This document shows, one piece after another, positions 4,224 through 33,201 of a stretch of DNA of 64,000 nt (position 1 is the first letter of the stretch; each line of letters starts with the position of its first letter). The translations under genes and the position numbers were made by a program. Origin of the DNA: Porphyra umbilicalis (taxonomy: Eukaryota > Rhodophyta > Bangiophyceae > Bangiales > Bangiaceae); NCBI GenBank assembly GCA_002049455.2, contig KV918820.1:62001-126000 (forward strand). Direction: 5' to 3'. The notes beneath the pieces were generated by a model. It was not told the DNA's origin, did not search any database, and saw nothing but the letters and a program-made list of their open reading frames with translations.

Positions 4224-6374
4224 TCAGTCGCTTGTGCCGCGGCTACCGGCGCGGTGCCCCACAGATGCGGCAGCAGCCACACCGTCCGGTGCGTGCGAGG
4301 CCGACCGAGCGGCACGTGCGCCACCGAGGGACGTGCGGCCGCCGCTGTCAGACAGCTGGTCGATGGCCGCCAACACCGTCACCACCCACGTGTCGATCCC
4401 GTGCGGCACAGGTGCTGCTGCCTCGTGTACGCTCGCGAGGGCGTCGAGGAGCTGCTGAAAAACGCGCTCCATCTCGTCCACGGGTGCGTGCGTGAGGTGC
4501 ACGCCGTCCAACGCAACGTGCAACTCGGTGACGCTGGCACGCGCGACGCCGGTCTTACGCTTGCGCACGACCGCTTTGAGCGCGTCGACGACCGGGCACC
4601 AGTACTGCCGCCGCTGCTGCTCCGACGCCCCGTCCATGCGCACGACCGTCGACCACGTCGGCGCCCACGCGTTTGTCACGTCCTCGGCCGCGTTGGCAAC
4701 GCCGAGCACCAACACGGGCGTGTCGACGGGGATGCGGGCCAGCACGCTGCGCAGCAGCGCGGTGGGCGACCCGTCGGCGGCGGCGGCAGACTCGGCCATC
4801 CACATTTCGGCGTCGGGCATGTACAGGACCGACGGCGCGACGCGGACGGCCGCCGCCACCGTGGACAGCAGCAGCGGCAGCTGCCCGTCGGTGCCACTCG
4901 CAGTGAGGGAGAGGAAGCCGACGTCAAACACGGGCAGGGACTGCAGGTGGCACAGCACCGCAGCCCCAACCAGCGACTGCCCATGCCCGCACGCCCCGCA
5001 ATGCAGAGGCGGTGCGGGAGGACCGGCCACGCGGCGAGCATGGCGGCGGCAGACGCACTTGACGTCGGCCCGCCCACGGCCTGGGTGGCCCACTCGGCGC
5101 CGGGGGTGGTCAGCTTGTCCAACGGAAAGCGCGTGTTGAGGACCCCCACCACCCCCGACACGGTCGGCTCGAGGAGCGCGCTCAGGCGCAACGGCAGCGG
5201 CCGGTGCAGCGCCGGGGATACCCCCGCCCGGGCGGTCTGCGCTCGGGAGGCCAGCGCCACGTCCCAGTCCGCGTGCGTCACGTCTGGGAGCGGCGGCGGC
5301 GGCGCGCCCCCCCCCCCCCCCCCCCCCCCCCCCCCGCACCACCCCCGACTGTCGCCGGGTCTGTGGCGGCGGTCGCCACCGCCTCGAGCCACTGCGGGTC
5401 GGTCCGGCGCCACGCGCAGCACACGGCTTCGGTGGCGAGGCCCCGGATTTCCGCTCCCGACCAGCCGTCTGTGCGTCGGACGACGTACGAGACCGCCGTC
5501 TCGTCTGCCGACGTGCCTGCGTGCAACGCCATCAGCCGCCGGCGGTCGGACGCGTCGGGCAGCTGAAAGTCGAGCTCCAAGTCAAACCGGCCCGGACGCC
5601 GAAACGCCGAGTCCAACAGGTCCGCCCGGTTGGTCGCGGCGAGGACCAACACGCGACCGCGCGAGCGAAAGCCGTCGAGCAAGGCGAGAAAGGTGTTGAC
5701 GACCCGCGAGTGGTCGCGGTTGTCGTCCCGCGTCGCCGCGAGGGCGTCGACTTCGTCGAAAAACAAGATGGACGGGGCCGCCGCGGTCGCAGTGTCAAAC
5801 AGGCGGCGCAGGCGGCGCTCGCCCTCGCCGACGTACTTGGAGAGGATTTCGCCGCCGCGGATGAGGTACAGAGGCACGGGGACGCCACCATTGGCCGCCC
5901 GCGCGTGCGAGGCGAGCACCCGCACGCTCAGCGTCTTGCCCGTCCCGGGCGGACCGGTCAGCAGCACACCCCGGGGAAAGGGCAGGGGCCGCCCGACACC
6001 TCCCCCGCGCGGCGTGGTGGTGAGCAGCGCCAGCACCTCGCGCAGCCGCGACACGTGCGCGTCGTGGCCCGCCACCGTTTCCCACGGGAGCGAGGCGGGG
6101 GGCTCGGGCTCGGGCACAATGTCGCCGGTCTCGCCCCGCCGGCGGCGCTTGGTCGCCCCGCCCGACACTGACCGTCGGTGCGGGCGCGCTTGGCCCCGAC
6201 GGGGCGCACCGGCGAGCCGCCTGCGTCGACGGGCGGGGGGGGGGGCACGCGGTTGGCGGCGCTCGCGGCACTCGCCGGCGGCAGGGTGTGGAGGCGCCCG
6301 TCCAAGCGCGACGCCACGTCTCGCACGGCGGCACGCGCCGCGCGGTCCCGTGCGGAACGACCACCCCGAGGCAT
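4224..6374 (-). CDS. ATAD2/Yta7-like tandem AAA+ ATPase, copy 1 (frame-broken)
   Basis: Probable nuclear AAA+ ATPase that remodels chromatin. From the chosen ATG at 6374 the order is: low-complexity N-terminus with a KRRRR basic patch; first AAA domain with Walker A GPPGTGKT (about residue 141), pore-loop motif SKYVGEGE, Walker B FFDEVDAL (about 205) and arginine-finger segment RRPGRFD (about 260); then a second, degenerate AAA-like domain with PHRLCIAGRAG, VLYMPDAEMW and PVLVLGVAN. A degenerate second AAA domain of this form is typical of ATAD2/Yta7; no bromodomain is visible. Total about 716 codons. The frame changes three times: near 6200-6240 (G run), in the 29-base C tract at 5307-5335, and near 4990. 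The ATG lies about 187 bases from a minus-strand TATA box. Either consensus indels or a decaying gene; the family call is firm for the first AAA domain. Confidence 0.82.
5307..5335. repeat. 29-base poly-C tract inside AAA+ gene
   Basis: An uninterrupted C run (poly-G, so glycine codons, on the coding strand) sits between the first and second AAA domains, exactly where the reading frame changes. Such runs are prone to indels in sequencing and in replication. Confidence 0.95.
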
Positions 6375-6554
6375 GCCGCGCGGCGAGGGCGACGGCGGGC
6401 ACATGGTGCTGCAGACGGGGGGAAACGACAGGGCGGCGGCACCGCGCGCACCCCGCGCGCCGCCGAGCGAGCCGCGCGGTCTCGCACGAGGGCGCCTCGG
6501 TGTGACGTCGACGCCCGTCGGCGGCGGTCGCAGTAGTCACATCGACCGGACCGT

Positions 6555-7382: not shown

Positions 7383-8200
7383 CCCACAGGCGTCGTGGGG
7401 GGTGGGCTTGGGTGCCCAGCGACGCGCCGGGGTCCCCCCGAGCCGCACCCCGGTAGGTGGTTGATTTTGCAAAATATGTTTTTTGTAGCCCACCAGGCTA
7501 CCATAAAACCAACGGTATTGCTAGAGTCAACTCTCGTAGGTTTTCCATTGGATTGTGGTACATCACCCCATCTGGGGGGGGGTGTCCTGGGGGTGCCCTG
7601 GGGTACCCCGCAGGCGTCGTGGGGTGGGCTTGGGTGCCCAGCGACGCGCGGGGTCCCCCGAGCCGCACCCCGGTAGGTGGTTGATTTTGCAAAATATGTT
7701 TTTTGTAGCCCACCAGGCTACCATAAAACCAACGGTATTGCTAGAGTCAACTCTCGTAGGTTTTCCATTGGATTGTGGTACATCACCCCATCTGGGGGGG
7801 GTGTCCTGGGGGTGCCCTGGGGTACCCGCAGGCGTCGTGGGGTGGGCTTGGGTGCCCAGCGACGCGCGGGGTCCCGCCGGGCCGCACCCCGGTAGGTGGT
7901 TGATTTTGCAAAATATGTTTTTTGTAGCCCACCAGGCTACCATAAAACCAACGGTATTGCTAGAGTCAACTCTCGTAGGTTTTCCATTGGATTGTGGTAC
8001 ATCACCCCATCTGGGGGGGGTGTCCTGGGGGTGCCCTGGGGGTACCCGCAGGCGTCGTGGTGGTGGGCTGGGTGCCCAGCGACGCGCAGGGGTCCCGCCG
8101 GGCCGAACCGCGGTAGCCGCGACGGGGTGGTTGTTTTTGCAAAATATTTTTTTGTAGCCCACCAGGCTACCATAAAACCAACGGTACATCACCCCATCCG
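7383..8200 (+). repeat. Satellite array 1 (about 220 bp unit, 3 full copies plus 1 truncated)
   Basis: Each unit has the core GTAGCCCACCAGGCTACC, then TAAAACC, the palindrome AGAGT-CA-ACTCT, then AGGTTTTCCATTGGATTGTGG. The fourth copy (about 8150-8200) lacks about 42 bases containing the palindrome; the deletion joins two GGTA tetranucleotides. The core is shared with three other arrays in the window while the spacers are array-specific. Confidence 0.95.
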
Positions 8201-10616
8201 GGGTGGGGTGCCCTGGGGGTGCCCACTCGCGTCCACCTGCGCAAAGCCCCCCCCGCCGGTCGGTGCTTGCGTCTAGACACATCGCGTGCGCTTTGCCGCC
8301 CGTCCACAAGAGCCGTCAGCGGCGCGTCACCGCCGCCACCATCGTACGTGTCGTCATTGGCGACACCGTCTGCTGTGTTTGCGCCGACACTCGGCATTTC
8401 GCCGTCGAGCGCGACGGTGGCCCCCAAAAAGCTCCCCCACAGGTCCACCCCCGTCCGGACCTCCATGGACAGGAGGGCGCGGAGGCCCTCAAACACCTGC
8501 TCCATCGCGTCGACGCTCCAATCCGCCGACTGTGTCTGCAACGCCTCCAGCCGTGCGCGTACGGCCGTCATGGCGACTGGTAGGCGTACACCTTGCTCGA
8601 GCTGCACGGCAAACTTGTCCTGCCACGCCCCGACGATGTGGGCCCAGTAGTCGGTGCGCTGCGCATCTGTGGCGCATTCGACAGAAAAGGTGGAGGGGAA
8701 ACTGGCCAGCAACGCAGGGCGGGCGCGCCCATCCGTTGTGGCCAAAACCAGGAGCGGCGTGCCGACGGGTACGTCCCGGAGCGCCGCCTCAAAAAAGCGC
8801 AGGCCCGTCGAGTCCCCCGCCGACGGGTCGTCCACCCACAAGTGTGCGTGGGGGATGAAGAGGACGGCCGGCGCGGCGCGCGTGGCGGCGGAAATCGTCT
8901 CTGCCAGCCGCTGCTGGGGGGTGCGCGCACCAGCCCCGCGTGTCAGCGACACAAAGCCCGCGTCATAGATCGGCATTGGTGTCAGCGCATGCAGAACCGC
9001 AGCTGCGACGGTGCCTTGTTGCATCCCCTCGTCCCCGTCAATGAGCAGTCGCTGGGGCAAAATGGGGAGGCCCGCGGCCACGCCTCTGAACCCAGTGTCC
9101 GCGCCGCACCCAACCGCCGCTGCGGCGGCGCACCGCCCAGGCACCGACCCGAGCCGTTGGACGGGAAAGTGGCGAGTGAGAAACCCCCGCACGTCGGCCA
9201 GCGTCGGTGCCAGCAGCGGCGCCACGCGTTCGGGGAGCGGCCGCCGCAGGGGCGGCGGCGTCCCGAGCCGCGTGAACTGTTCGCGCCGGTAGAGGGTACC
9301 CTGCCAGTCGACACGCACGTCGGCAGGATCGTCGGCAACCTCCTTAATCGAGTCGGGCCACCCGGAAACCGCCGCGCGAAGACGGTCGTGGCGGCGTCGT
9401 CACAGAGGCCCGCAAGCTCGGCCCCCGACCAGTCGTCGGTGTGGGCGGCGATCCAGGCCGCGTCCGCCGCGTCCACGGGCACGCCGACCGCGGCGGCCGA
9501 CACGCGCATGATGGCCGCGCGGCCGGCCGCGTCGGGGAGCCCAAAGCGCAGCTCCGTACCAAACCGGCCGGGCCGACGAAACGCGGGATCGATCAGGTCG
9601 ACACGGGACGTCGCCGCAACAACCAACACCCGGTCCCGCCGCCCCAACCCGTCCAAGAACGCCAACAGCGTGGCGATCACGGGCATCGACTCTTGGCGCC
9701 CGCCGGTGCGCGTGGCCGCGAGCGCCTCAAACGCGTCGAAAAAAATGATGGACGGCTGCGCGGCGGTGGCGGCGTCCATCACACGCCGGACGCACTGTTT
9801 GCCGTGGCCGACGCACTTGGAGAGGAGCTCGCCGCCATTGAGGACCCACAGGGGCACCACGGTGCCCCCATTGAGCGCCTTGGCACGGCCCGCCAGCAGG
9901 CGGACGGCCAGCGTCTTGCCCGTCCCGGGGGGGCCCGTCAACAAAACCCCACTCTTGGTCGCGGCCCCCGCCGCCCGTCGCGCGTCGGGCATCAGGAGGA
10001 CGGCGAGGGCGACTTTCAGGGCGTCCACGTTGGCCGCTTGGCCGGCAAGCGCGTCCCATCCCGGCGTGTCGTCGGGCAGTTGCAGCGGCTCGGGCGGTGG
10101 CGTCGACGACCGCGGTGAGTCGGCCGTGCGGGTGCGGTGGCGCTGCCGTCGCTGCGGCGGTGGCTGCTCCTCCTCCTGGTGCTGTGGACGCGGAGGGGGC
10201 GGGCCAGCCAACAATGAACAAAAGGAACCATAATACATCGCCGAGAGGTTCTGGGCGCCGCCCGTGGCAGGTGATCGGGGGGGGGGGGGGTGGTGGGCGG
10301 GGCCTCGGGCGGGGCCTCGGGGGGGGCCTCGGGGGGGCCTCGGGGGGGCCTCGGGCGGGGCCTTGGTGCGCCTGCCACCCCGAGCGCCGGCACCTCGGCC
10401 GGCAGCGTTGGGGGGTGCACGCGGACGCGCCCCGGCAGACGACAGCGGGGGGCGCCCAAGGCCGGCGGGGGCGGCCCGCCGGCCCCGCCTGCCCCGAGCG
10501 GGCGCGGCCGCGCCACCCACGCCGCGCCGACCAGCGTCGGGGGGGGAGGGCACCCCATCGCCCGCGCGGTCGCCACCGGCACCGTCACCTCGCGTGGCAC
10601 GCGGCTTGCCGTCCAT
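8167..10616 (-). CDS. ATAD2/Yta7-like tandem AAA+ ATPase, copy 2, divergent active site (frame-broken)
   Basis: Paralogue of the 4224-6374 gene, about 816 codons from ATG 10616. The N-terminus is long, proline/glycine/arginine-rich and disordered. The first AAA domain keeps Walker A GPPGTGKT (about residue 227) and RRPGRFG, but Walker B reads FFDAFEAL instead of FFDEVDAL and the pore-loop region reads SKCVGHGK instead of SKYVGEGE. The second AAA-like domain (PQRLLIDGDEG, VLFIPHAHLW, PLLVLATTDG) is well preserved. The frame changes near 9320-9350; the downstream frame has no ATG there (GTG), which supports one gene with an indel rather than two genes. The C-terminal codons run into the last unit of satellite array 1. 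A missing catalytic Glu suggests a regulatory or inactive partner of copy 1 (inference). Confidence 0.82.
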
Positions 10617-10796
10617 GTTGACAAGCAAGGGAGCCGCCGCCACACACAAAGGGGGGGGGGGGCGGGGGGGGGGGGCGCCCGACCGACGCGGCCACGGGGG
10701 CAGTTGGTGTGTGTGGGGTGGGAGAGGAGGGTGTCACTATCTGGACCACCGCGCTGGCCGTCCCGTCTCTGCCCCGAGCCGCGGCGCCCACCAACG

Positions 10797-10803
10797 TTTT
10801 ATA
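10797..10803 (-). promoter_or_regulatory. TATA box for AAA+ copy 2
   Basis: Minus strand reads GCCCCTATAAAAC, about 187 bases upstream of ATG 10616. An ATTGG (inverted CCAAT) lies about 25 bases further upstream. Confidence 0.6.
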
Positions 10804-11709
10804 GGGGCTGGCGCCGGCGGGACGACCAATCACGATGGGCTGACAGCCACCTCTCAGCAACAGCAATGCAGCCGTCCCCACCGCGGAAACCACAACCGCC
10901 CATCTCGTGGGCCCTGTGGCAGACCCGTCCAGTGCACTGTCGCAGTCGGTGTTGTACCCCCCATACCGTACGCGCTGGGCGTCACGTGACCACCGGTGCC
11001 GCGACGGTGGGGGATGGACGATCTGCCACTGTATTTATTGCTAGTCCGTAAAAAATAGAATCGGGTTGGGTGGCGTCAGTGCATCCACCAATCAGCGTTT
11101 TTCTCACGCTTGTGGGCTGTTGACTCGGGCTTGGACACGACCTCAAGGAACAGACCGGTGCTTTGTCGTGAGATTGGCCCACTTTTGCAGACTCCTTGAC
11201 ACCCAGGCGTGCGGTTCCAGGATGTATGTAGAGTTGCATCGGGCGAATGTGTAAGCATGTCAGACGCTGTCCACCCATTCCACTGGTCCACATCGGCTGT
11301 TCAGGGCGACCTTGGAAGGTTTTTGGAGGTTGTCGAGAGGACAAATTCGCAATTGCGCGCACACGTTTCCAGGTCAGCGCATCGCGAGCCCCCAAGCGCC
11401 GCACGCTCGCCGTTGCAACAGGCGCGTCAGTGTTGTGGTCCCTCGCGCAGCACAGTGGCGCACCCACACCGGTGACGGCGTCTGTCAATGGGCGACGCGC
11501 TCCGAGTCGCACCGTGGCGCGCTGGCGTGTCGCCTGTGGTCGACGCATTGGGATTGGGCACACATCGTATTGATACAATGTACCAAACCTCTACTGACTG
11601 TCCTACAAAAAAGAAGATGCATCTCGCGTGTCGATCGTTCCTACCCCCGCCCACCCAAAACGCACGACCGGTCGACCGAGGTGGGGCCGCGCCGGGACCG
11701 CCCGACCTA
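10804..11709. other. Intergenic, no gene supported
   Basis: Lies between the promoter of AAA+ copy 2 and the 3' end of the methyltransferase-SET gene, both on the minus strand. Frames are short and without motifs. A TATTTATTG stretch at about 11033 could be an AT-rich 3'-end signal but nothing ties it to a transcript. Confidence 0.4.
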
Positions 11710-14550
11710 TCATCGGTCAAACGCCTGCGGGGAGCTCCGTCCCGTGCCGGCGCGCGCCTTTTGCACAAACTTCCACTCAAAGTCGGCCCCATAGTCGACC
11801 AGCAGCTCCTCCCCAAACGCAACCGCCCGCGTCGTCACGAGGGTGAGGGTGTCGTCCCGGGACAGGTCCTCCACCGCACGGATGTCCGTGTACCACTTCA
11901 ACACCGCGTTGGGCCCCTCGGCCGCGGGCGATGGGGACCGCGTGGGACCCGGCGCGGGCGCGACCGGTGCCAGAGCACCCGCAGCACTCGCATCACGCGC
12001 ATCATGCGCTGGCGCGGCCGCCCCGCCGCCCCCCCCCCCCCCCCCTCCCCCCCCCCCCCCCCCACACGCGCCGGTCGCCGCGTCGGCGGCGACACGCGCC
12101 GCGCCGATGACCGGTCCCCAGTGGTTGACAAACCCGAGCGCCGACCCGCCGAGGGGCACAACCCAAAACGGCTTGGCCCAGTGAGACATCTTGTGCCCGT
12201 TCAAGCGGCAGAGCTGGGGCGTCACACGCGCGTTTCCGCGCATCGGCCCGTAGAAGCTGTTCTTGACTTGCTCGTACTGCGCCATCTGACAGTTGTGCCA
12301 CACGACCGGACCCCACAAGGACCCGACCGTGTGTTGGGCGCCAAAGCCATCCGGCCGGCTGACAAAGCAGCCGAGGCCCGCATCCGGCACGGTCGAGACG
12401 CCAAGGCGGACGCCACAGGCAGACGCGTCGGCGGCGCGGAGAGACGCGAGCGGAAAATCCTCAAAAAGAAACCGAAGGGCACGCCGCCACTTTCGCGGAT
12501 GCGTGGCGTACATCGCCCCAATCTCCACGGGTGTCACCACGTCCGCGGCAGCAAGCGGGACGTACGCGGCCACGACGTGGTCCACAATGTGCCTCGGCAG
12601 CACCGTGTGTGGCACCATCTCCGTCGCGGGCGGCTGCAAAATGCTGCGCCGCGCAGGCCGCATCGCCGGCGGGCGATCGTCAGAGAGCACGTTGCGGTCG
12701 AGCGCACCGACGGTGGTCGTGACAGCCGATGCCAGCTCCGCATCTCGCTCGCAAATGGCTCGACCGTCGTGCGTCGAGGACAAAAAGCGGACAAAAGACG
12801 AAAAGACGCGTCGCTTGCCAAACCGCACCGCCACGGGGTCCTTGTCACAGCTCCAACTGTGGCGCCGCGTCTGGATGCACGCGTCCGCCGTTGAAAAGGA
12901 GCCCGCAAACAGGTCCAACACGACGTCGCTCGGTTTGGTGAAGCGTCGAATGAGCTCGCGCAAGAGGCTGACCGGCTTCTGCTCGGGGCGCAGGATGCCG
13001 TCGCCCGCATAGACGACCTCGCGACCCGTCGGCTGCGTCACATGGTTGTACACGTTGCTGTTGCCGGGCATACTCGACACGTCACTGTCAAACACGCGGT
13101 AGTTGACCATGCGGTGGCCGGCCAACCCCGCGCCGCGCCGCGTCGCGTGTACGGCCACAAACATGTGGTTGGCGAGGGTGGTGGTGCTTCGCGGCGCGCC
13201 CGTCGGCGTCGAACAAATAAAGGCCATGGGGCCCGCGTCCACCGCCCACAGCGACTCGTTCGTCGTCGGGGCCTTGTACGATTCGAGGGTCTTGGACAGG
13301 TCCGAAAACTGGGAGAAGGAACACATGATGATGGCGTGGCCCCCCTGCCGAACGCTGGACGTCGCAAAGTCACACAGCACCCCCCGGTCCGAGTCGGTAA
13401 AGACGTCGTGGTCAGAGTTGTCATTGCCAGCGACACGCCGCGTATTCCACGGAATGTCCGTCAGCAGCAGCTGGACGCGCAGCTGGAGGCGGGATACGGG
13501 GAACTTCCAAAAGTCGAGCTCGTACGTGCGGCACTCCTCTGCCAGAGCGCGGTCGACCACCTGGAAGGCGTCACGCTCCGCGTCGGTCAAGCCGGCCACC
13601 AGCCCGACAGAGGTGTCTGTCGGTAGGGCCCCTTCCGGCGCGACGGGGGCACGCACAGCGTCGGCGGGGTCCGCCTCGACCGGCAAACGCAGCTGCTTCA
13701 GGTAGCTCGACAAGACGGGCGCCAGCCCATCCACCAGCGTGCGCCGGGGTCGAAGGAAGGACGCGCCGCTCAAACTCCCAATGTCGGCGCGCATGGACAG
13801 CGGGTTGTAGGTGTTTGACCAAACGTCCTTGCCGTTGGAAACGGCAACGACGTGCTCGACAAAGCGAACGGCCGCTGTCCGCAACGCCCGATCCGCCCGC
13901 GGCAAAGCGTCCAGCCGCCGCAACGCAGCGGCGTCGACCACGGCTGGGTCCACCGAGGGCCGTTGCCCATGCCACAGGCGATGGCGACTCGCCAGGGGGG
14001 CGAACCCCAACCGGGCGTCGGTGATCGGCTCAAAACACACATTCGTGGCGGACCACAACAGGTAGGGCGACAGCATGGTTTCACTGTCGGGGAAGCCACA
14101 CAAGATGGCAAGCACGTCCCACGATCGCACGCACGCCATGATCTGCGCCTTGACGCGAAAGCCCCGCAGCTCGCGGTCGACGGTGCCGACCGGGTCGGGC
14201 GTCCGTCGCGGACGCGGTGTCGCACCGGCGACGATCGCCTTGGCCGCCCTGGTCTTTAGGGTGCCCCCCTGTCGAGCGACGCGGGAAGCACGACCGGGGG
14301 TGTTGCGCGCCGCCGGCGCCCCGTCCGCCGCACCCGCGCGCTTGGACGGGGCCTTGCCCGCACGCTTGGGCGTCGGCTTTGAGGGCCTCGTGTCGTTGAC
14401 GTCTTCGAGAAACGGGTGCGCCGCCGTCACGTCGCGCGCGAGTTGGGTAAACCACCAGAGCCGCTCCCACGGGGTCGCGTAGGGACCAGACGGTGCCACA
14501 CGGCGCTCGTGGTGGTCTTGTCGATCACACAATACGCAGCAGTCTCGCAC
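11710..14550 (-). CDS. Beta-class DNA methyltransferase fused to a SET domain
   Basis: Predicted to methylate DNA (N6-adenine or N4-cytosine) and, through SET, protein lysines, in the nucleus. Residues are counted from the open-frame start. A basic linker lies near 50-80. Methyltransferase catalytic motif LLLTDIPWN is at about 364 and the AdoMet-binding motif VLDLFAGSFST at about 546, preceded by KPVSLLRELI. Catalytic motif before AdoMet motif is the beta-class order of bacterial modification enzymes, not the MT-A70 order. The SET domain runs from about 715 to 930, with PDAGLGCF, FVNHWG and GEELLVDYG; a poly-glycine run (C tract at 12021-12063) splits it. The frame has no ATG near its start (GTG at 14550; first ATG about 135 codons in) and overlaps the ParB-like frame by 124 bases, so it is probably the C-terminal part of that gene. 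Alternative: a SET domain inactivated by the glycine insert. Confidence 0.8.
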   Translation of the reverse strand: MRDCCVLCDRQDHHERRVAPSGPYATPWERLWWFTQLARDVTAAHPFLEDVNDTRPSKPTPKRAGKAPSKRAGAADGAPAARNTPGRASRVARQGGTLKTRAAKAIVAGATPRPRRTPDPVGTVDRELRGFRVKAQIMACVRSWDVLAILCGFPDSETMLSPYLLWSATNVCFEPITDARLGFAPLASRHRLWHGQRPSVDPAVVDAAALRRLDALPRADRALRTAAVRFVEHVVAVSNGKDVWSNTYNPLSMRADIGSLSGASFLRPRRTLVDGLAPVLSSYLKQLRLPVEADPADAVRAPVAPEGALPTDTSVGLVAGLTDAERDAFQVVDRALAEECRTYELDFWKFPVSRLQLRVQLLLTDIPWNTRRVAGNDNSDHDVFTDSDRGVLCDFATSSVRQGGHAIIMCSFSQFSDLSKTLESYKAPTTNESLWAVDAGPMAFICSTPTGAPRSTTTLANHMFVAVHATRRGAGLAGHRMVNYRVFDSDVSSMPGNSNVYNHVTQPTGREVVYAGDGILRPEQKPVSLLRELIRRFTKPSDVVLDLFAGSFSTADACIQTRRHSWSCDKDPVAVRFGKRRVFSSFVRFLSSTHDGRAICERDAELASAVTTTVGALDRNVLSDDRPPAMRPARRSILQPPATEMVPHTVLPRHIVDHVVAAYVPLAAADVVTPVEIGAMYATHPRKWRRALRFLFEDFPLASLRAADASACGVRLGVSTVPDAGLGCFVSRPDGFGAQHTVGSLWGPVVWHNCQMAQYEQVKNSFYGPMRGNARVTPQLCRLNGHKMSHWAKPFWVVPLGGSALGFVNHWGPVIGAARVAADAATGACGGGGGGGGGGGGGGAAAPAHDARDASAAGALAPVAPAPGPTRSPSPAAEGPNAVLKWYTDIRAVEDLSRDDTLTLVTTRAVAFGEELLVDYGADFEWKFVQKARAGTGRSSPQAFDR

Positions 14551-16094
14551 AGCGCCTGGGAGCGATCCACCGCCGCAGCGACAACAGCAGCGGAGAGCTT
14601 TGACGGGGCACCCGCAGCTGGAGCGGTCATCGCCGCGGCGCCGGCCGATGCAGCACGTCCCTCGTCTGCAACGTCTCGGGGCGCACTCGATGCCGCGCCG
14701 GCGGCCGCCTTGTCCGTACCCGTGGCAACGCTGTCGACACCGCGCGCGGCCGCGGCACCGCGACTGACGCGGCGCACCTTTGTTGGCGGCGCGCCGTCGC
14801 CACCGTCGGGCGCACCGTCCACGGCGACCGACGCCACCCCGTCTCGGTCGACGTCCATGGGCGCGTCAGAGCTGCCCTCGGCGGCGTCTGCGTCCTCCTC
14901 CTCGTCGGACGGGGATTGGGATGGCCCCGCACCCGAGCGCCGCCCTCGTTTGGTGCGCTTGGGTGGTCCTTTCGCGAGCTTTGGGAGAGAGGGGCCCCCA
15001 AAGTTGCGCCACTGATGGGACACCAGCACAGGGCAGCGGAGCATGCTCCATGCAACCCGGGGCAGGCGGTCCGCCGGGCGGTCCGTAAACCCGACCCGGG
15101 AGCGCCCCCCTGCACTGGCGCCACCGCCACTACTGGCACGTGTGCCAGCCGTGGCCGGTGCCCCATCCGTTTCGGCGGGCCCGTCTGCGTCGACGAGCAC
15201 GTCGGCCAGATCATCGACGCGGCGGCCCAGGAACAGGAACAGCTCCCAGCACCGCGTGTCGACAGGCGCAGCGCGCGCTTGCCGCGCCGCAGTCAGGTGG
15301 TCAGAAGTCCACGGCTTGATCGCCTGCAGGAGGCGGTACCACGTGTACGTGCGGTTCTCCGATATCCACTTGACGAGCCCCTCCTCCGTCGAGGCCCCGT
15401 CAGCTCTGCCCGCGCTGCGCAGAACCTCCGCGAGAGTCACTTTGCGGACGGGGATGTCGTCTTCCCTAACCAGGTCGTCCCGCACAAAGGTCATTGACAT
15501 GAAGAAGTCGACAGACGCCATACGCAGGGTCCGCGCCGTGGTCGTGTTCTTGTTTGACGCCATGACCACGCGCGTCGCGTCGGTCGGGTTGGCCGCCTTT
15601 GCCTCGGTCGTGGGGGACCCGAGGACCAACCAGGGTACCCGCGTCCAGCCATCGGGGTAGCCCTCTCCCGCCAGCTGCCGCTCAGCCGCAAGCAGACGGT
15701 GGTGGCCCTCGACGACGACGCCGTGGCGCTCGCCGCGAATGGCGAGACCTTGGATCGGGTGGGCGGCCAAGTCCTTGAGCGAGTCCGGCTCGATCTCGTC
15801 GACGTGATCCAGCACCACGGACCGACAGCGCGTCCCGTACCTGAAGAAGCCGACTTCAACCCACACTGTTGTGCCCACTGGGAGGGAGTCTGGTTCAACG
15901 TCAAGGGGGCTGCCCGTCACGTCGGTCATCAACGGCTGGGAGGTTGCCGCGGCAGGTGGCAGCGGCTGGACCACCCCCACCGGCAGCGGTTGGACCGCCG
16001 CCACGCCGTCACCACGTCGATGTGCTTGCGCACCCCCGCGTCCCGCCTCTGGCGCGTTGGTGGTCGCACCCCCGGCTGCTGGCGTTGTCCCCAT
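14427..16094 (-). CDS. ParB-like N-terminal-domain protein, probably fused to the methyltransferase-SET frame
   Basis: From ATG 16094, residues about 75-170 resemble the ParB/sulfiredoxin-like fold: IEPDSLKDLAAHP followed by VVVEGHHRLLAAERQL (about 127), then an NKNTTTARTL stretch in the position of the ParB asparagine motif. An acidic Ser/Asp-rich segment and basic patch (PPKRTKRGRR) follow. The frame overlaps the methyltransferase frame, and sense-like sequence passes from one to the other near 14490-14500. In bacteria and phages, ParB-like domains are often fused to the N-terminus of this class of DNA methylase (COG1475 with COG0863), so a single ParB-methylase-SET protein of about 1,460 residues broken by one indel is the best explanation. 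A GTG-started extension to 16154 is possible but not preferred. Confidence 0.68.
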   Translation of the reverse strand: MGTTPAAGGATTNAPEAGRGGAQAHRRGDGVAAVQPLPVGVVQPLPPAAATSQPLMTDVTGSPLDVEPDSLPVGTTVWVEVGFFRYGTRCRSVVLDHVDEIEPDSLKDLAAHPIQGLAIRGERHGVVVEGHHRLLAAERQLAGEGYPDGWTRVPWLVLGSPTTEAKAANPTDATRVVMASNKNTTTARTLRMASVDFFMSMTFVRDDLVREDDIPVRKVTLAEVLRSAGRADGASTEEGLVKWISENRTYTWYRLLQAIKPWTSDHLTAARQARAAPVDTRCWELFLFLGRRVDDLADVLVDADGPAETDGAPATAGTRASSGGGASAGGRSRVGFTDRPADRLPRVAWSMLRCPVLVSHQWRNFGGPSLPKLAKGPPKRTKRGRRSGAGPSQSPSDEEEDADAAEGSSDAPMDVDRDGVASVAVDGAPDGGDGAPPTKVRRVSRGAAAARGVDSVATGTDKAAAGAASSAPRDVADEGRAASAGAAAMTAPAAGAPSKLSAAVVAAAVDRSQALCETAAYCVIDKTTTSAVWHRLVPTRPRGSGSGGLPNSRAT

Positions 16095-16195
16095 CGTCAC
16101 TGCCGCGACGCACACACACACCGCGTCCGGTCCGAGCCCGGCGCACGTCGGCACCCGTCAACGGGCACACCCCACGCAGCCAGACATACACCTCG

Positions 16196-16203
16196 TATTT
16201 ATA
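16196..16203 (-). promoter_or_regulatory. TATA box for ParB-methylase-SET gene
   Basis: Minus strand reads CGCCTATAAATACG, about 109 bases upstream of ATG 16094. The same GCC-TATAAA form precedes other genes here. Confidence 0.58.
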
Positions 16204-16319
16204 GGCGTATCGCAGGGTGCACTGCGTGCGCAATGACGAGCAGTGCTGGTGCGCCAGGCGTCCCAGTTGCGCACCGCAGCGAGCACGCCCACAGAGGGTT
16301 TGACGCCGGCGGTATGTGG

Positions 16320-17755
16320 GTGTGGGCGGCTGACCGCCCCTCCCGGGAGCGCCAGGCGCCGTCTGGACGACCCCCCCTGAAGGTGCTTGTGCACCACAAT
16401 CCAATGGAAAACCTACAAGAGTTGACTCTGGCAATATGGACGGTTTTGGGGTGGCCCGGGGGGCCACAAAGAAATATTTTGAAACGCGTCCCACACCACG
16501 CACACACGCGGGGGGCCCCCCGGCACCCAGGAAGATGGTGTGGGCGGCTGACCGCCCCTCCCGGGAGCGCCAGGCGCCGTCTGGACGACCCCCCCCTGAA
16601 GGTGCTTGTGCACCACAATCCAATGGAAAACCTACAAGAGTTGACTCTGGCAATATGGACGGTTTTGGGGTGGCCCGGGGGGCCACAAAGAAATATTTTG
16701 AAACGCGTCCCACACACGCACACACGCGGGGGGCCCCCCGGCACCCAGGAAGATGGTGTGGGCGGCTGACCGCCCCCCGGAGCGCCAGGCCCGTCTGGAC
16801 GACCCCCCCTGAAGGTGCTTGTGCACCACATCCAATGGAAAACCTACAAGAGTTGACTCTGGCAAATGGACGGTTTGGGGTGGCCGGGGGCCACAAAGAT
16901 ATTTTGAAACGCGTCCCACACACGCACACACGCGGGGGGCCCCCCGGCACCCAGGAAGATGGTGTGGGCGGCTGACCGCCCCTCCCGGGAGCGCCAGGCG
17001 CCGTCTGGACGACCCCCCCTGAAGGTGCTTGTGCACCACAATCCAATGGAAAACCTACAAGAGTTGACTCTGGCAATATGGACGGTTTTGGGGTGGCCCG
17101 GGGGGCCACAAAGAAATTTTTGAAACGCGTCCCACACACGCACACACGCGGGGGGCCCCCCGGCACCCAGGAAGATGGTGTGGGCGGCTGACCGCCCCTC
17201 CCGGGAGCGCCAGGCGCCGTCTGGACGACCCCCCCCTGAAGGTGCTTGTGCACCACAATCCAATGGAAAACCTACAAGAGTTGACTCTGGCAATATGGAC
17301 GGTTTTGGGGTGGCCCGGGGGGCCACAAAGAAATATTTTGAAACGCGTCCCACACACGCACACACGCGGGGGGCCCCCCGCACCCAGGAAGATGGTGGGC
17401 GGCTGACCGCCCCTCCCGGGAGCGCCAGGCGCCGTCTGGACGACCCCCCTGAAGGTGCTTGTGCACCACATCCAATGGAAACTACAAGAGTTGACTCTGG
17501 CAATATGGACGGTTTGGGTGGCCCACAAAAATTGAAACGCGTCCCACACACGCACACACGCGGGGGGCCCCCCGGCACCCAGGAAGATGGTGTGGGCGGC
17601 TGACCGCCCCTCCCGGGAGCGCCAGGCGCCGTCTGGACGACCCCCCCCTGAAGGTGCTTGTGCACCACAATCCAATGGAAAACCTACAAGAGTTGACTCT
17701 GGCAATATGGACGGTTTTGGGGTGGCCCGGGGGGCCACAAAGAAATATTTTGGAC
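16320..17755 (-). repeat. Satellite array 2 (about 210-219 bp unit, 7 copies, reverse orientation)
   Basis: Seven units each contain CCACAATCCAATGGAAAACCT and GAGTTGACTCTGG, the reverse complement of the core in arrays 1, 3 and 4. Spacers differ from the other arrays (GTGGGCGGCTGACCGCCC, CGCACACACGCGGGGG). Copies 3 (about 16755-16975) and 6 (about 17390-17545) have many 1-6 base deletions relative to the others. Confidence 0.95.
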
Positions 17756-17949
17756 CATAATGCCACACATTGTCGACACAGTGGGGGGCTTCCTCGGCCC
17801 CTACCTGTTGAACTGATGGGCAGTTGTTGTTCAGTGTCTTTGCTGTCATATGACAAACCCCTCACAACAACCCCCATGTTCTCATGTCTCAAGACCCTCT
17901 GTGGAAAGCCTGAAAGCGGAGCATGGCACAAGTGACGGACAGTTCTATT
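17756..17949. other. Short unique spacer
   Basis: Lower-GC sequence between array 2 and the second MITE; nothing recognised. Confidence 0.4.
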
Positions 17950-18279
17950 TGTGGCGGCTGATTTTAGAATCCGCGATCTAGGTGAGGTTCATCGAGGGCA
18001 GATACGGCGAGTTATGGATTGTTCGATCTCAACTCACACGGGTCAATCCCGAGTCGCGATTCCCTCTTCATCGGTGATCTGGCCAGTCCTTTCCTGGTTC
18101 TGGGCTGTGTCAGCAGAACGTCATGGATCAAGAAAATTACATCCCTGCTCTGGGATTTGATTCCGTGAGGATGGCGAAGGCGGCGTTCGACAGTTCGTGA
18201 CGAGACGATTCTTGAGGTCTGAATAGGTCAGAAATGTTGACAGCTTCATAAATCGCGGACTGTAAAATCAGCCGCCACA
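17950..18279. mobile_element. MITE-like element with 28 bp terminal inverted repeats
   Basis: The left end begins TGTGGCGGCTGATTTTA (17950) and continues AGAATCCGCGAT or similar; the right end (18252-18279) is its reverse complement with two mismatches. The element is about 330 bp, about 50% GC against a GC-rich background, and has no coding capacity. Target-site duplication is uncertain (AT-rich flanks). Confidence 0.68.
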
Positions 18280-18659
18280 TTTAGTCTTATCAAGGACGCA
18301 TTCTTCTTGCCAGGTGGTCACTGCCTGGTGTCCATTCTGCCCACGCCAAAATCAGGCTCTGATGAAGCTCAAATAAGGCTCTCTCTCATATGGCCTGGAA
18401 ACGCAATTTTACTGGGTGTGTGGGGCACCCCCTGCAAGGATTCATCTCACAGCGTCGCCCAGTTCGTGCATTGGTAAGTGGACTGCGCTGAGACTACATC
18501 ACTCCTTGAGCAGCCGAGGAAGGCAATATGGTTTCATAGTGGCAGCCTATCTCTTGGAGGGTGCTTTGGGCGTGCCCAGGGCACGCCCAAGACACACATG
18601 CAGGGCATTCCAAGACACGCCGACACACAGGGGTCCCCCCAGGACGCACGCCCTTTAGC
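18280..18659. other. Unique sequence, no gene supported
   Basis: Moderate-GC sequence leading into array 3. The last 100 bases (about 18560-18650) contain GCCCAGGGCACGCCC-type direct repeats. No frame shows a recognisable motif. Confidence 0.4.
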
Positions 18660-21600
18660 CACGTCGGGGTGGTTGATTCTGCAGGTTATCATTTTGGTAG
18701 CCCACCAGGCTACCATAAAACCAACGGTATTGGTAGAGTCAACTCTGGCAGGTTTTCCATAGGATTGTGGTACTGCGACCCATCTGGGGGGGGTGCTCTG
18801 AGGGGGCCCCACCGGCCTCCTGGGGGGGGCTGGGGCAGGCCGCCCCCCGGTAGCCACGTCGGGGTGGTTGATTCTGCAGGTTATCATTTGGTAGCCCACC
18901 AGGCTACCATAAAACCAACGGTATTGGTAGAGTCAACTCTGGCAGGTTTTCCATAGGATTGTGGTACTGCGACCCATCTGGGGGGGGGTGCTCTGAGGGG
19001 GCCCCACCGGCGTCCTTGAGGGGGCTGGGGAGGCCGCCCCCCGGTAGCCACGTCGGGGTGGTTGATTCTGCAGGTTATCATGTTGGTAGCCCACCAGGCT
19101 ACCATAAAACCAACGGTATTGGTAGAGTCAACTCTGGCAGGTTTTCCATAGGATTGTGGTACTGCGACCCATCTGGGGGGGGGTGCTCTGAGGGGGCCCC
19201 ACCGGCGTCCTTGAGGGGGCTGGGGAGGCCGCCCCCCGGTAGCCACGTCGGGGTGGTTGATTCTGCAGGTTATCATTTTGGTAGCCCACCAGGCTACCAT
19301 AAAACCAACGGTATTGGTAGAGTCAACTCTGGCAGGTTTTCCATAGGATTGTGGTACTGCGACCCATCTGGGGGGGGTGCTCTGAGGGGGCCCCACCGGC
19401 CTCCTGGGGGGCCCCACCGGCGTCCTTGAGGGGGCTGGGGAGGCCGCCCCCCGGTAGCCACGTCGGGGTGGTTGATTCTGCAGGTTATCATGTTGGTAGC
19501 CCACCAGGCTACCATAAAACCAACGGTATTGGTAGAGTCAACTCTGGCAGGTTTTCCATAGGATTGTGGTACTGCGACCCATCTGGGGGGGGTGCTCTGA
19601 GGGGGCCCCACCGGCGTCCTTGAGGGGGCTGGGGAGGCCGCCCCCCGGTAGCCACGTCGGGGTGGTTGATTCTGCAGTTATCATTTGGTAGCCCACCAGG
19701 CTACCATAAAACCAACGGTATTGGTAGAGTCAACTCTGGCAGGTTTTCCATAGGATTGTGGTACTGCGACCCATCTGGGGGGGGTGCTCTGAGGGGCCCC
19801 ACCGCCTCCTGGGGGGCCCCACCGGCGTCCTTGAGGGGGCTGGGGAGGCCGCCCCCCGGTAGCCACGTCGGGTGGTTGATTCTGCAGGTTATCATGTTGG
19901 TAGCCCACCAGGCTACCATAAAACCAACGGTATTGGTAGAGTCAACTCTGGCAGGTTTCCATAGGATTGTGGTACTGCGACCCATCTGGGGGGGGGTGCT
20001 CTGAATGGGGCCCCACCGGCCTCCTGGGGGGGCTGGGGAGGCCGCCCCCCGGTAGCCACGTCGGGGTGTTGATTCTGCAAGTTATCATGTTGGTAGCCCA
20101 CAGGCTACCATAAAACCAACGGTATTGGTAGAGTCAACTCTGGCAGGTTTTCCATAGGATTGTGGTACTGCGACCCATCTGGGGGGGGGTGCTCTGAGGG
20201 GGCACCACCGGCGTCCTTGAGGGGGCTGGGGAGGCCGCCCCCCGGTAGCCACGTCGGGGTCGTTGATCCTACAGGTTATCATGTTGGTAGCCCACCAGGC
20301 TACCATAAAACCAACGGTATTGGTAGAGTCAACTCTGGCAGGTTTTCCATAGGATTGTGGTACTGCGACCCATCTGGGGGGGGTGCTCTGAGGGGGCACC
20401 ACCGGCGTCCTTGAGGGGGCTGGGGAGGCCGCCCCCCGGTAGCCACGTCGGGGTGGTTGTTCTGCAAGTTATCGTTTTGGTGGCCCACCAGGCTACCATA
20501 AAACCAACGGTATTGGTAGAGTCAACTCTGGCAGGTTTTCCATAGGATTGTGGTACTGCGACCCATCTGGGGGGGGGTGCTCTGAGGGGGCACCACCGGC
20601 GTCCTTGAGGGGGCTGGGGAGGCCGCCCCCCGGTAGCCACGTCGGGGTGGTTGATTCTGCAGGTTATCATGTTGGTAGCCCACCAGGCTACCATAAAACC
20701 AACGGTATTGGTAGAGTCAACTCTGGCAGGTTTTCCATAGGATTGTGGTACTGCGACCCATCTGGGGGGGGGTGCTCTGAGGGGGCACCACCGGCGTCCT
20801 TGAGGGGGCTGGGGAGGCCGCCCCCCGGTAGCCACGTCGGGGTGGTTGATTCTGCAAGTTATCGTTTGGTAGCCCACCAGGCTACCATAAAACCAACGGT
20901 ATTGGTAGAGTCAACTCTGGCAGGTTCTCCATAGGATTGTGGTACTGCGACCCATCTGGGGGGGGGTGCTCTGAGGGGGCACCACCGGCGTCCTTGAGGG
21001 GGCTGGGGAGGCCGCCCCCCGGTAGCCACGTCGGGGTGGTTGATTCTGCAAGTTATCGTTTTGGTAGCCCACCAGTCTACCATAAAACCAACGGTATTGG
21101 TAGAGTCAACTCTGGCAGGTTTTCCATTGGATTGTGGTACTGCGACCCATCTGGGGGGGGGTGCTCTGAATGGGGCCCCACCGGCGTCCTTGAGGGGGCT
21201 GGGGAGGCCGCCCCCCGGTAGCCACGTCGGGGTGGTTGATTCTGCAAGTTATCGTTTTGGTAGCCCACCAGGCTCCCATAAAACCAACGGTATTGGTAGA
21301 GTCAACTCTGGCAGGTTTTCCATAGGATTGTGGTACTGCGACCCATCTGGGGGGGGGTGCTCTGAGGGGCCCACCGGCCTCCTGGGGGGCCCCACCGGCG
21401 TCCTTGAGGGGGCTGGGGAGGCCGCCCCCCGGTAGCCACGTCGTGGTCGTTGATTCTGCAGGTTATCATGTTGGTAGCCCACCAGTCTACCATAAAACCA
21501 ACGGTATTGGTAGAGTCAACTCTGGCAGGTTATCCATAGGATTGTGGTACTGCGACCCATCTAGGGGGGGGTGCTCTGAATGGGGCCCCACTGGCCTCCT

Positions 21601-24600
21601 GGGGGGGCTGGGGAGGCCGCCCCCCGGTAGCCACGTCGGGGTTGTTGATTCTGCAAGTTATCATGTTGGTAGCCCACTAGGCTACCATAAAACCAACGGT
21701 ATTGGTAGAGTCAACTCTGGCAGGTTTTCCATAGGATTGTGGTACTGCGACCCATCTGGGGGGGGGTGCTCTGAGGGGGCACCACCGGCGTCCTTGAGGG
21801 GGCTGGGGAGGCCGCCCCCCGGTAGCCACGTCGGGGTCGTTGATCCTACAGGTTATCATGTTGGTAGCCCACCAGGCTACCATAAAACCAACGGTATTGG
21901 TAGAGTCAACTCTGGCAGGTTTTCCATAGGATTGTGGTACTGCGACCCATCTGGGGGGGGGTGCTCTGAGGGGGCACCACCGGCGTCCTTGAGGGGGCTG
22001 GGGAGGCCGCCCCCCGGTAGCCACGTCGGGGTGGTTGATTCTGCAAGTTATCGTTTTGGTGGCCCACCAGGCTACCATAAAACCAACGGTATTGGTAGAG
22101 TCAACTCTGGCAGGTTTTCCATAGGATTGTGGTACTGCGACCCATCTGGGGGGGGTGCTCTGAGGGGGCACCACCGGCGTCCTTGAGGGGGCTGGGGAGG
22201 CCGCCCCCCGGTAGCCACGTCGGGGTGGTTGATTCTGCAAGTTATCATGTTGGTAGCCCACCAGGCTACCATAAAACCAACGGTATTGGTAGAGTCAACT
22301 CTGGCAGGTTTTCCATAGGATTGTGGTACTGCGACCCATCTGGGGGGGGTGCTCTGAGGGGGCACCACCGGCGTCCTTGAGGGGGCTGGGGAGGCCGCCC
22401 CCCGGTAGCCACGTCGGGATGGTTGATTCTGCAAGTTATCATTTTGGTAGCCCACCAGGCTACCATAAAACCAACGGTATTGGTAGAGTCAACTCTGGCA
22501 GGTTTTCCATAGGATTGTGGTACTGCGACCCATCTGGGGGGGGGTGCTCTGAGGGGGCACCACCGGCGTCCTTGAGGGGGCTGGGGAGGCCGCCCCCCGG
22601 TAGCCACGTCGGGGTGGTTGATTCTGCAGGTTATCATGTTGGTAGCCCACCAGGCTACCATAAAACCAACGGTATTGGTAGAGTCAACTCTGGCAGGTTT
22701 TCCATAGGATTGTGGTACTGCGACCCATCTGGGGGGGGTGCTCTGAGGGGGCACCACCGGCGTCCTTGAGGGGGCTGGGGAGGCCGCCCCCCGGTAGCCA
22801 CGTCGGGGTGGTTGATTCTGCAAGTTATCGTTTTGGTAGCCCACCAGGCTACCATAAAACCAACGGTATTGGTAGAGTCAACTCTGGCAGGTTCTCCATA
22901 GGATTGTGGTACTGCGACCCATCTGGGGGGGGGTGCTCTGAGGGGGCACCACCGGCGTCCTTGAGGGGGCTGGGGAGGCCGCCCCCCGGTAGCCACGTCG
23001 GGGTGGTTGATTCTGCAAGTTATCGTTTTGGTAGCCCCCAGTCTACCATAAAACCAACGGTATTGGTAGAGTCAACTCTGGCAGGTTTTCCATAGGATTG
23101 TGGTACTGCGACCCATCTGGGGGGGGGTGCTCTGAGGGGGCACCACCGGCGTCCTTGAGGGGGCTGGGGAGGCCGCCCCCCGGTAGCCACGTCGGGGTGG
23201 TTGATTCTGCAGGTTATCATGTTGGTAGCCCACCAGGCTACCATAAAACCAACGGTATTGGTAGAGTCAACTCTGGCAGGTTTTCCATAGGATTGTGGTA
23301 CTGCGACCCATCTGGGGGGGGGTGCTCTGAGGGGGCACCACCGGCGTCCTTGAGGGGGCTGGGGAGGCCGCCCCCCGGTAGCCACGTCGGGGTGGTTGAT
23401 TCTGCAAGTTATCGTTTGGTAGCCCACCAGGCTACCATAAAACCAACGGTATTGGTAGAGTCAACTCTGGCAGGTTTCCATAGGATTGTGGTACTGCGAC
23501 CCATCTGGGGGGGGTGCTCTGAGGGGCCCACCGGCTCCTGGGGGGCTGGGGAGGCCGCCCCCCGGTAGCCACGTCGGGGTGGTTGATTCTGCAAGTTATC
23601 ATGTTGGTAGCCCACCAGGCTACCATAAAACCAACGGTATTGGTAGAGTCAACTCTGGCAGGTTTTCCATAGGATTGTGGTACTGCGACCCATCTGGGGG
23701 GGGGTGCTCTGAGGGGGCACCACCGGCGTCCTTGAGGGGGCTGGGGAGGCCGCCCCCCGGTAGCCACGTCGGGGTGGTTGATCTACAGGTTATCATGTTG
23801 GTAGCCCACCAGGCTACCATAAAACCAACGGTATTGGTAGAGTCAACTCTGGCAGGTTTTCCATAGGATTGTGGTACTGCGACCCATCTGGGGGGGGTGC
23901 TCTGAGGGGGCACCACCGGCGTCCTTGAGGGGGCTGGGGAGGCCGCCCCCCGGTAGCCACGTCGGGGTGGTTGATTCTGCAAGTTATCGTTTTGGTAGCC
24001 CACCAGGCTACCATAAAACCAACGGTATTGGTAGAGTCAACTCTGGCAGGTTTTCCATAGGATTGTGGTACTGCGACCCATCTGGGGGGGGTGCTCTGAG
24101 GGGGCACCACCGGCGTCCTTGAGGGGGCTGGGGAGGCCGCCCCCCGGTAGCCACGTCGGGGTGGTTGATTCTGCAAGTTATCATGTTGGTAGCCCACCAG
24201 GCTACCATAAAACCAACGGTATTGGTAGAGTCAACTCTGGCAGGTTTTCCATAGGATTGTGGTACTGCGACCCATCTGGGGGGGGGTGCTCTGAGGGGGC
24301 ACCACCGGCGTCCTTGAGGGGGCTGGGGAGGCCGCCCCCCGGTAGCCACGTCGGGGTGGTTGATTCTGCAAGTTATCATGTTGGTAGCCCACCAGGCTAC
24401 CATAAAACCAACGGTATTGGTAGAGTCAACTCTGGCAGGTTTTCCATAGGATTGTGGTACTGCGACCCATCTGGGGGGGGGTGCTCTGAGGGGGCACCAC
24501 CGGCGTCCTTGAGGGGGCTGGGGAGGCCGCCCCCCGGTAGCCACGTCGGGGTGGTTGATTCTGCAGTTATCATGTTGGTAGCCCACCAGGCTACCATAAA

Positions 24601-27600: not shown

Positions 27601-28230
27601 CCTTGAGGGGGCTGGGGAGGCCGCCCCCGGTAGCCACGTCGGGGTGGTTGATTCTGCAGTTATCATGTTGGTAGCCCACCAGGCTACCATAAAACCAACG
27701 GTATTGGTAGAGTCAACTCTGGCAGGTTTTCCATAGGATTGTGGTACTGCGACCCATCTGGGGGGGGTGCTCTGAGGGGGCCCACCGGCTCCTGGGGGGC
27801 CCACCGGCCTCCTGGGGGGCCCCACCGGCGTCCTTAGGGGGCTGGGGAGGCCGCCCCCCGGTAGCCACGTCGGGGTCGTTGATTCTGCAGGTTATCATGT
27901 TGGTAGCCCACCAGGCTACCATAAAACCAACGGTATTGGTAGAGTCAACTCTGGCAGGTTTTCCATAGGATTGTGGTACTGCGACCCATCTGGGGGGGGT
28001 GCTCTGAATGGGGCCCCACCGGCCTCCTGGGGGGCTGGGGAGGCCGCCCCCGGTGCCACGTCGGGGTGGTTGATTCTGCAGTTATCATGTTGGTAGCCCA
28101 CCAGGCTACCATAAAACCAACGGTATTGGTAGAGTCAACTCTGGCAGGTTTTCCATAGGATTGTGGTACTGCGACCCATCTGGGGGGGGTGCTCTGAGGG
28201 GGCACCACCGGCGTCCTTGAGGGGGCTGGG
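18660..28230 (+). repeat. Satellite array 3 (about 194 bp unit, about 49 copies)
   Basis: Continuous head-to-tail array covering about 9.5 kb. Each unit has GGTAGCCCACCAGGCTACC, TAAAACC, the palindromic AGAGT-CA-ACTCTGG, AGGTTTTCCATAGGATTGTGG, a G run, and a spacer with GGCCGCCCCCCGGTAGCCACGT. Variants include an extra CCTCCTGGGGGG insert of 16-24 bases (for example near 19400, 19805, 21380 and 27800) and alternate words at the TTGATTCTGCA site. The long frames on both strands are by-products of the repeat. Confidence 0.97.
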
Positions 28231-28279
28231 GTCACCACCGACGCGCGGGGGTGCTCCGAGGCCGCCCCCTGGGGGAAAG

Positions 28280-28600: not shown

Positions 28601-28674
28601 ACCTGTCACACCCCGAGACGGCGTCGTGCTTCTCAACCCCCCCACCCCCTCAACCGGGCGACGCTGAGAGTGTC

Positions 28675-33031: not shown

Positions 33032-33201
33032 AAAGGCTCGACAAAGCACGGCGGTGGTGGCCGTGCACGTTCCGTTGTCGCCGGCAGCCCGCGGGCGGTG
33101 CACTCCCGCGACGCGTGGTGCAGAGGAGACGCCCGCCGCAGCACGTTGGTGCCCGAGCGTCGAGTGCACGTGCCGGCCCGTCGTTGCCGTTGGTTGCCGC
33201 C

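Follow-up and report, generated by a model that had tools for sequence, protein, structure and literature searches.

The window analysed here is a 64,000-nucleotide stretch of the red alga Porphyra umbilicalis (assembly GCA_002049455.2, contig KV918820.1, positions 62,001 to 126,000 of the forward strand). Its minus strand carries a gene that we call PMS (ParB-methylase-SET), which is read from 16094 to 11710 and encodes first a probable ParB-like domain, then a beta-class N4/N6 DNA methylase and last a likely SET domain. Judged from the reading frames of its copies elsewhere in the genome, the product is one real triple-domain protein. The features of the gene are as follows.

11710–16094, minus strand: window copy of the PMS gene, split between two frames (16094–14427 and 14550–11710) with a frame change near 14507
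15537–15932, minus strand: ParB-like domain, recognised by profile-profile comparison with phage ParB, without a Pfam hit
15675–15707, minus strand: G-H-H-R-L-L-A, of the pattern GxxRxxA, which we take to be the ParB box
14916–15404, minus strand: conserved segment after the ParB-like domain (alignment A2)
12796–13593, minus strand: beta-class N4/N6 DNA aminomethyltransferase domain (PF01555, E=1.1e-12), in which motif IV precedes motif I
13438–13470, minus strand: catalytic motif IV, D-I-P-W in the window copy
12886–12921, minus strand: S-adenosylmethionine (AdoMet) motif I, F-A-G-S-F in the window copy and M-G-T-G in subfamily B
11713–12414, minus strand: SET domain, with GLGCFV (12381–12352), GFVNHWG (12135–12115), GEELLVDYG (11814–11788) and a poly-glycine insert (12069–12022)

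The upstream frame of the window copy (14427–16154, 575 residues) has its ATG at 16094, and the downstream frame (11710–14550, 946 residues) opens on GTG; the two overlap by 124 bases. The original prediction had described a ParB-like frame overlapping, in the same strand and order, a methylase frame that runs into a SET domain, and both frames are indeed present. It went too far in denying the downstream frame a usable ATG, as in-frame ATGs occur at 14139, 14076 and 13794, past the frame start and ahead of the methylase motifs. The passage from one frame to the other, which it had put at 14490–14500, lies near 14,507, where a one-base length difference separates the window copy from two others (L029 and L034). 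The PMS region is 67–69% G+C and rich in open frames that arise by chance (52 open reading frames of at least 80 residues overlap 10000–18500), so that long frames are a weak argument for coding, and homology has to decide. Positions 15309–15365, judged by eye, may form a helix-turn-helix within the segment that follows the ParB-like domain.

A profile search of the 83.8-Mb genome with PF01555 detected at least 21 PMS copies, the window's own included, dispersed on 19 contigs. Of 11 phycobilisome matches in this genome, which mark the host as a red alga, 10 are located on contig C665. Comparison by tblastn divides them into subfamily A, which comprises the window copy and 11 others, and subfamily B, with nine members; the 20 copies besides the window are designated L029 to L048. 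In pieces of at least 100 residues, subfamily A is 88–100% identical to the window copy, the exceptions being one piece of L038 (85%) and four pieces of L044 (35–75%), whereas subfamily B is 24–48% identical (mostly 31–43%; about 38–40% for L030). All three domains of L030, a member of subfamily B, lie in a single frame of 1,495 codons, 1,382 of them from the ATG taken as the start. The single open frame of L029 (subfamily A; 1,419 codons) runs through ParB and the methylase into SET, of which it covers the first half, to the NH motif, and that of L031 (subfamily B) likewise extends from ParB through the methylase to the SET NH motif. The methylase and the whole SET domain share one frame in L032, L035, L038 and the window copy. 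Since a single frame holds all of the protein in L030 and most of it in L029 and L031, across two diverged subfamilies, PMS is, on this comparative evidence, one protein rather than two, as the original prediction had held. The break near 14,507 in the window copy is missing from L029 and L034; L034 has a break of its own about 115 bases upstream, and that of L029 falls in the poly-glycine tract. Over 8.1 kb these three copies are near-identical, with 9–20 substitutions and 9–14 indels in pairwise comparison, and such a number of short indels points to errors of assembly in G+C-rich runs, in addition to decay.

The identity of the methylase domain is strongly supported by homology. The window domain scored 48.9 bits against PF01555 (curated cut-off, 26.7), and L030 matched Pfam at 5.8e-14 and phage DNA methylase families at 9.3e-18; the family methylase profile matched methylases in the PDB at 5.2e-10. 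A PDB search with P0001 returned methylases, plus antibody linkers matched by poly-glycine. The permuted motif order was confirmed in the reading direction, motif IV (13470–13438) coming before motif I (12921–12886). The consensus of beta-class N4/N6 methylases is D/N/S-P-P-Y/F/W for the catalytic motif and F-x-G-x-G for the AdoMet motif. When every locus was searched by pattern in its six frames, motif IV in subfamily A was found to read D-I-P-W in eight of 12 copies and D-P-P-Y in none, and 11 of the 12 had F-A-G-S-F as motif I. Subfamily B mostly conforms to the consensus, with D-P-P-Y in seven of nine copies and M-G-T-G in eight of nine. Motif I is present in one form or the other in 19 of the 21 copies. 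The subfamily A methylase, the window's included, is thus probably impaired or altered, while its SET motifs persist. It is doubtful that the window copy marks both DNA and chromatin, and its DNA methylation in particular is in question because D-I-P-W and F-A-G-S-F stand in place of D-P-P-Y and F-x-G-x-G.

A SET domain, a putative lysine methyltransferase, is likely. A two-sequence family profile for SET and a family profile for ParB were compared with reference profiles and tested against column shuffles and reversed and crossed controls. The SET reference consisted of seven SET sequences of this genome, which we read as E(z)-type, with the best SET match (L001) left out. Against it the SET family profile scored 38.2 (probability 79%), a value reached by none of 120 column shuffles (mean 12.4, maximum 21.6); the reversed control scored 20.4. 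The motifs GLGxFV, NH and GEELxxDYG are co-linear in this comparison. L030 SET alone scored 42.4 (probability 89%) and the window SET alone 26.5 (probability 14%, with only the last motif aligned), and in each case none of 60 shuffles was as high. By pattern search, GEEL..DYG is present in 18 of the 21 copies and G-F/Y-V/I-N-H in 16. Searches of the PDB with the SET profile returned mainly antibody linkers, the matches to SETD8 (E=0.23) and EZH2 (E=0.081) lying outside the key motifs or covering 23 positions only, and searches with L030 SET alone and with P0002 returned nothing useful. Elsewhere in the genome SET matches number at least 85, the longest of their frames reaching 1,420 residues. 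Of the eight that were fetched, seven (L002 to L008) are E(z)-like, and several are near-identical, which indicates a repeated family; SET matches show no enrichment in the neighbourhood of Plavaka or Transposase_21 matches.

For the ParB-like domain, which we regard as probable, the reference was a set of 11 phage ParB sequences. The family alignment scored 29.8 against it (probability 22%), and none of 120 shuffles was as high (highest, 23.9). The window domain alone scored 36.9 (probability 67%; none of 60 shuffles as high, highest 18.4) and that of L030 28.2 (probability 17%; highest shuffle, 21.2), and the reversed and crossed controls gave 15.1, and 9.1 and 11.6, respectively. The aligned region spans the ParB box and little beyond, and we grade the support as moderate. 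The ParB profile had no match in the PDB, and the ParB segment had none among phages by tblastn at E<=1. A match to phrog_620 (ParB-like) was disregarded as too weak (E=0.19). A second ParB protein considered at 28423–30585, which has a GGHRxxA like the box, is unsupported, as 25 of 100 shuffles scored as high.

Comparison of the copies at the DNA level places PMS in a larger common unit, of which the window contains the following parts. Minimum match lengths were 100 or 400 bases for the shared unit, 100 for 5' against 3' arrays, 60 for subfamily B against subfamily A arrays and 150 for flanking repeats.

8982–10649, minus strand: AAA ATPase gene of the unit (PF00004, 5.1e-29), with Walker A at 9950–9912 and Walker B F-F-D-A
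16195–16204, minus strand: TATA-like CTATAAATAC, some 100 bp ahead of the PMS ATG (16094), occurring once in the window (0.00 expected)
16319–17752, plus strand: 218-bp satellite array on the 5' side, from the array search
7383–8186, plus strand: 219-bp satellite array on the 3' side, about 70–80% like the 5' array, in inverted orientation

The AAA gene belongs to the DNA unit that the copies have in common. The genome has 44 AAA DNA matches; with the 30 strongest counted, 19 of the 21 PMS copies have one within 15 kb, all 21 within 30 kb, and all 12 of subfamily A within 11 kb. Walker B reads F-F-D-A in seven of the 12 subfamily A copies, and none was found by pattern in the remainder. Weak AAA DNA matches (67–69%) also lie a few kilobases from the subfamily A copies on contigs C25, C31 and C445. 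A second AAA ATPase of the window (5278–6540, minus strand) is 48% identical to that of the unit over 266 residues, and its Walker B reads F-F-D-E. The TATA-like site CTATAAATAC is present on the strand of the gene at seven of the 11 other subfamily A loci and seven of the nine subfamily B loci, and at none of 48 other loci; its distance from the ATG was determined for the window, L029, L030 and L031.

Satellite arrays accompany subfamily A on the 5' side in nine of the 11 fetched copies and, inverted, on the 3' side in five; both are present in four of these copies and in the window. The 3' count is affected by fetched stretches that stop short of the array and by L033, whose sequence consists of N in that part; some copies may lack the array. 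A boundary of the AAA module at window position 10928, suggested by L033, was dropped, since the N stretch of L033 starts at that point. The window has additional arrays from 18656 onward. The six of nine subfamily B copies that were tested showed no array with a period above 60, and none of the nine matched the subfamily A arrays. Two subfamily B genes lie between direct repeats, of about 420 bp (91%) in L048 and of about 210 bp (87%) in L043. A unit of B type may start at the right edge of the window, as 62762–63226 matches the PMS-AAA interval of five copies of subfamily B; within 60001–64000, G+C reaches 0.868 (in 60001–62000).

The two genes of the unit have diverged to different degrees. 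Synonymous divergence (pS) between the window and subfamily B is 0.57–0.63 in the methylase-SET frame (all nine copies) and 0.62–0.66 in the ParB frame (the seven copies with a match; L046 and L047 gave no value), versus only 0.05–0.18 in the AAA gene (six of nine; the AAA gene of L036, L043 and L045 lies outside the fetched stretch, and the value for L030 is based on 53 codons only). It is as if PMS modules had been exchanged beside a common AAA gene, or as if AAA had been homogenised; the mosaic of a little-diverged AAA beside a deeply diverged PMS suggests module exchange.

We favour, with moderate confidence, the explanation that the window PMS belongs to a repeated red-algal element, probably transposon-like, of which the window holds one copy; the element encodes a fused ParB-like/N4-N6 methylase/SET protein and an AAA ATPase and may mark itself. 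That the copies are numerous, dispersed and mostly broken, lie near an AAA gene, have a common TATA-like site and in several cases carry inverted flanking arrays points to such an element. Several results weigh against this explanation. The three domains occur in a single frame in only one of the 21 copies (L030) and in no subfamily A copy, and most copies are broken. The pooled ratio of nonsynonymous to synonymous differences (pN/pS) within subfamily A is 0.715, ranging from 0.59 to 1.18 by segment, as in decaying copies; it was calculated from 55 non-independent pairs of 11 sequences, with L038 left out and L035, L039 and L044 partial. Both methylase motifs of the window copy deviate from the consensus. 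ParB_N (PF02195) was unmatched at E<=1 in the window and in L030, and had no match in this genome at E<=10, with matches in 11 of 14 control genomes. The SET domain falls under the Pfam cut-off of 22.4 (PF00856) at 12.1 bits (E=0.27) in the window and 14.0 bits (E=0.072) in L030, and the window SET is missing from the 85 SET matches of the Pfam search of the genome. Of the profile check that the original prediction proposed, therefore, one part succeeded, both SET and ParB surpassing all shuffles in profile-profile comparison, and one part did not, SET staying under its Pfam threshold and ParB without a Pfam match. As to mobility, Plavaka and Transposase_21, the two superfamilies searched genome-wide, gave no match at 15 kb or less from any of the 21 copies, with about one expected for each, and no target-site duplication was established for the PMS unit. 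The arrays form no clean border, as L033, L035 and L037 carry an array in the 3'-type orientation on the 5' side too. Transport of PMS as cargo of Plavaka or EnSpm elements is unsupported, with no enrichment; at least 123 Plavaka and at least 136 Transposase_21 matches exist in the genome.

The same evidence bears on other explanations. That two independent genes overlap by chance, with no fusion, would agree with the two frames of the window copy and with the 20 of 21 copies that lack a three-domain frame; we reject two unrelated genes as exceedingly improbable, since in L029, L030 and L031, from two diverged subfamilies, a single frame leads from ParB through the methylase as far as the NH motif of SET. 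Alternatively, PMS could be a host chromatin gene family that is not mobile and was spread by segmental duplication in satellite-rich regions. The near-identity of the window, L029 and L034 over 8.1 kb fits this, the arrays near subfamily A copies could drive unequal exchange, and neither a transposase of the superfamilies searched nor a target-site duplication was found; we nevertheless regard it as unlikely, given 21 mostly broken copies on 19 contigs and two deeply diverged subfamilies with related AAA genes near each.

Domains of the ParB, methylase, SET and AAA types occur in viruses, and the methylase of PMS has phage relatives, which would suit a remnant of an integrated large DNA virus carrying these genes. 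However, three scans of IMG/VR, sensitive to close relatives only, gave one weak match for the methylase and none for ParB or SET, and no virus hallmark gene appeared in 16 distinct Pfam-scanned stretches, a partial check of the 140 window open reading frames of at least 150 residues; we regard a viral origin as very improbable. A further possibility concerns mechanism only and is compatible with the transposon-like element: SET domains also act on non-histone proteins, and that of PMS might methylate a non-histone partner, for example the AAA ATPase or PMS itself. The PMS SET has insertions and no assignment to a histone-specific class, and an AAA gene lies near every copy. Against this, the matched SET reference, of E(z) type by our reading, belongs to a histone class; we consider this target somewhat unlikely.

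For the transposon-like element that we prefer, a function can be proposed from the domain parts and from the precedent of the Sola1-1 accessory protein described below. The ParB-like domain would hold the PMS protein on the element's own sequences, where the methylase, if intact, and SET would then write DNA methylation and lysine methylation. These marks might control the timing of expression or movement of the element, or shield it from host silencing. Movement would probably need a transposase supplied from elsewhere, as none was found in the unit. In the window copy, whose methylase is probably impaired, DNA binding and SET would be the activities left, provided that the gene functions. 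A bolder version, in which PMS and the satellite arrays make up one system that recognises itself, is speculative and quite improbable: the ParB-like domain would read the arrays as ParB reads parS, SET (and in subfamily B also the methylase) would write chromatin, the element would build its own heterochromatin or centromere-like domain, and PMS modules of different specificity would be swapped beside a common AAA gene. The absence of such arrays from the subfamily B copies, and the lack of clean borders in those of subfamily A, speak against it. If the protein does what its domains imply, the reading of a DNA address, the writing of DNA methylation and histone-type writing would come together in one selfish gene. 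The genome, with diverged subfamilies that have kept the methylase motifs in one case and altered them in the other, would then allow a direct test of whether a mobile element can set its own chromatin state.

Other features of the window lie apart from the PMS unit. An open reading frame at 43875–45566 (plus strand) matches Cas12f1-like/TnpB TNB (PF07282, 7e-6), has a C-terminal RDTNAA stretch and is Fanzor-like by eye; ahead of it, 40126–43731 (plus strand) encodes 1,201 residues with a weak, sub-cut-off zinc-knuckle match. A match to the Ulp1-type peptidase (PF02902, E=1.3e-4, barely above the cut-off) at 33115–34119 (plus strand) lies between satellite arrays at 18656–28231 and 35246–36233, and perhaps represents another element with accessory genes. 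About 2 kb at 51105–53122 consists of a degenerate tandem repeat of GTCACAGG type.

Several known systems join a subset of these domains. The DNA modification methylase of Streptococcus phage Javan316 (L055) resembles PMS in having an N-terminal ParB-like domain followed by the methylase in one chain, but at 420 residues it leaves no room for SET after the methylase. Cytosine methylases in LINE and DIRS retrotransposons of Symbiodinium and Dam-like adenine methylases in DIRS elements (PMC5890265) are, like PMS, DNA-marking enzymes acquired by mobile elements; however, these are other methylase classes, combined with reverse transcriptase, and the accessible part of that paper names no ParB or SET. 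Methylases are also described in virus-borne Mariner elements (PMC3627910). The N4C methylase of bdelloid rotifers (N4CMT; PMC8885841) is a bacterial-type PF01555 enzyme in a eukaryote joined, as in PMS, to a chromatin-related domain. It differs in being a host gene with a chromodomain, a reader, and without ParB, whereas PMS is multi-copy and has SET, a writer.

The closest parallel, compared by description, is the accessory protein (1,104 residues) of the Ectocarpus transposon Sola1-1_Ec32, which is ParB-like with an N4/N6 methylase (PMC12477816); the authors suggest that it binds and modifies the transposon's own sequence. As in PMS, two prokaryote-like domains are joined in one protein of a repeated algal element, with the same suggested role, and PMS shows this combination in the single frames of L029, L030 and L031 and in a family of 21 copies. 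In contrast to the PMS unit, which adjoins an AAA gene and in which no transposase was found, the Sola1-1_Ec32 element has a transposase gene, and the term 'SET domain' does not occur in the part of the text available. The same source describes giant families without a transposase homologue, presumed to be non-autonomous. A ParB-methylase-SET protein was not found in the literature searched, which comprised the listed titles and beginnings of abstracts, most subscription papers being outside its scope. The statement of the original prediction that it knew of no described protein of this order stands, within that literature, for the addition of SET and does not for ParB with an N4/N6 methylase. 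Accessory proteins that combine ParB with a methylase are on record for algal transposons (PMC12477816), and the new part of PMS would be the extension of such a protein by a SET domain.

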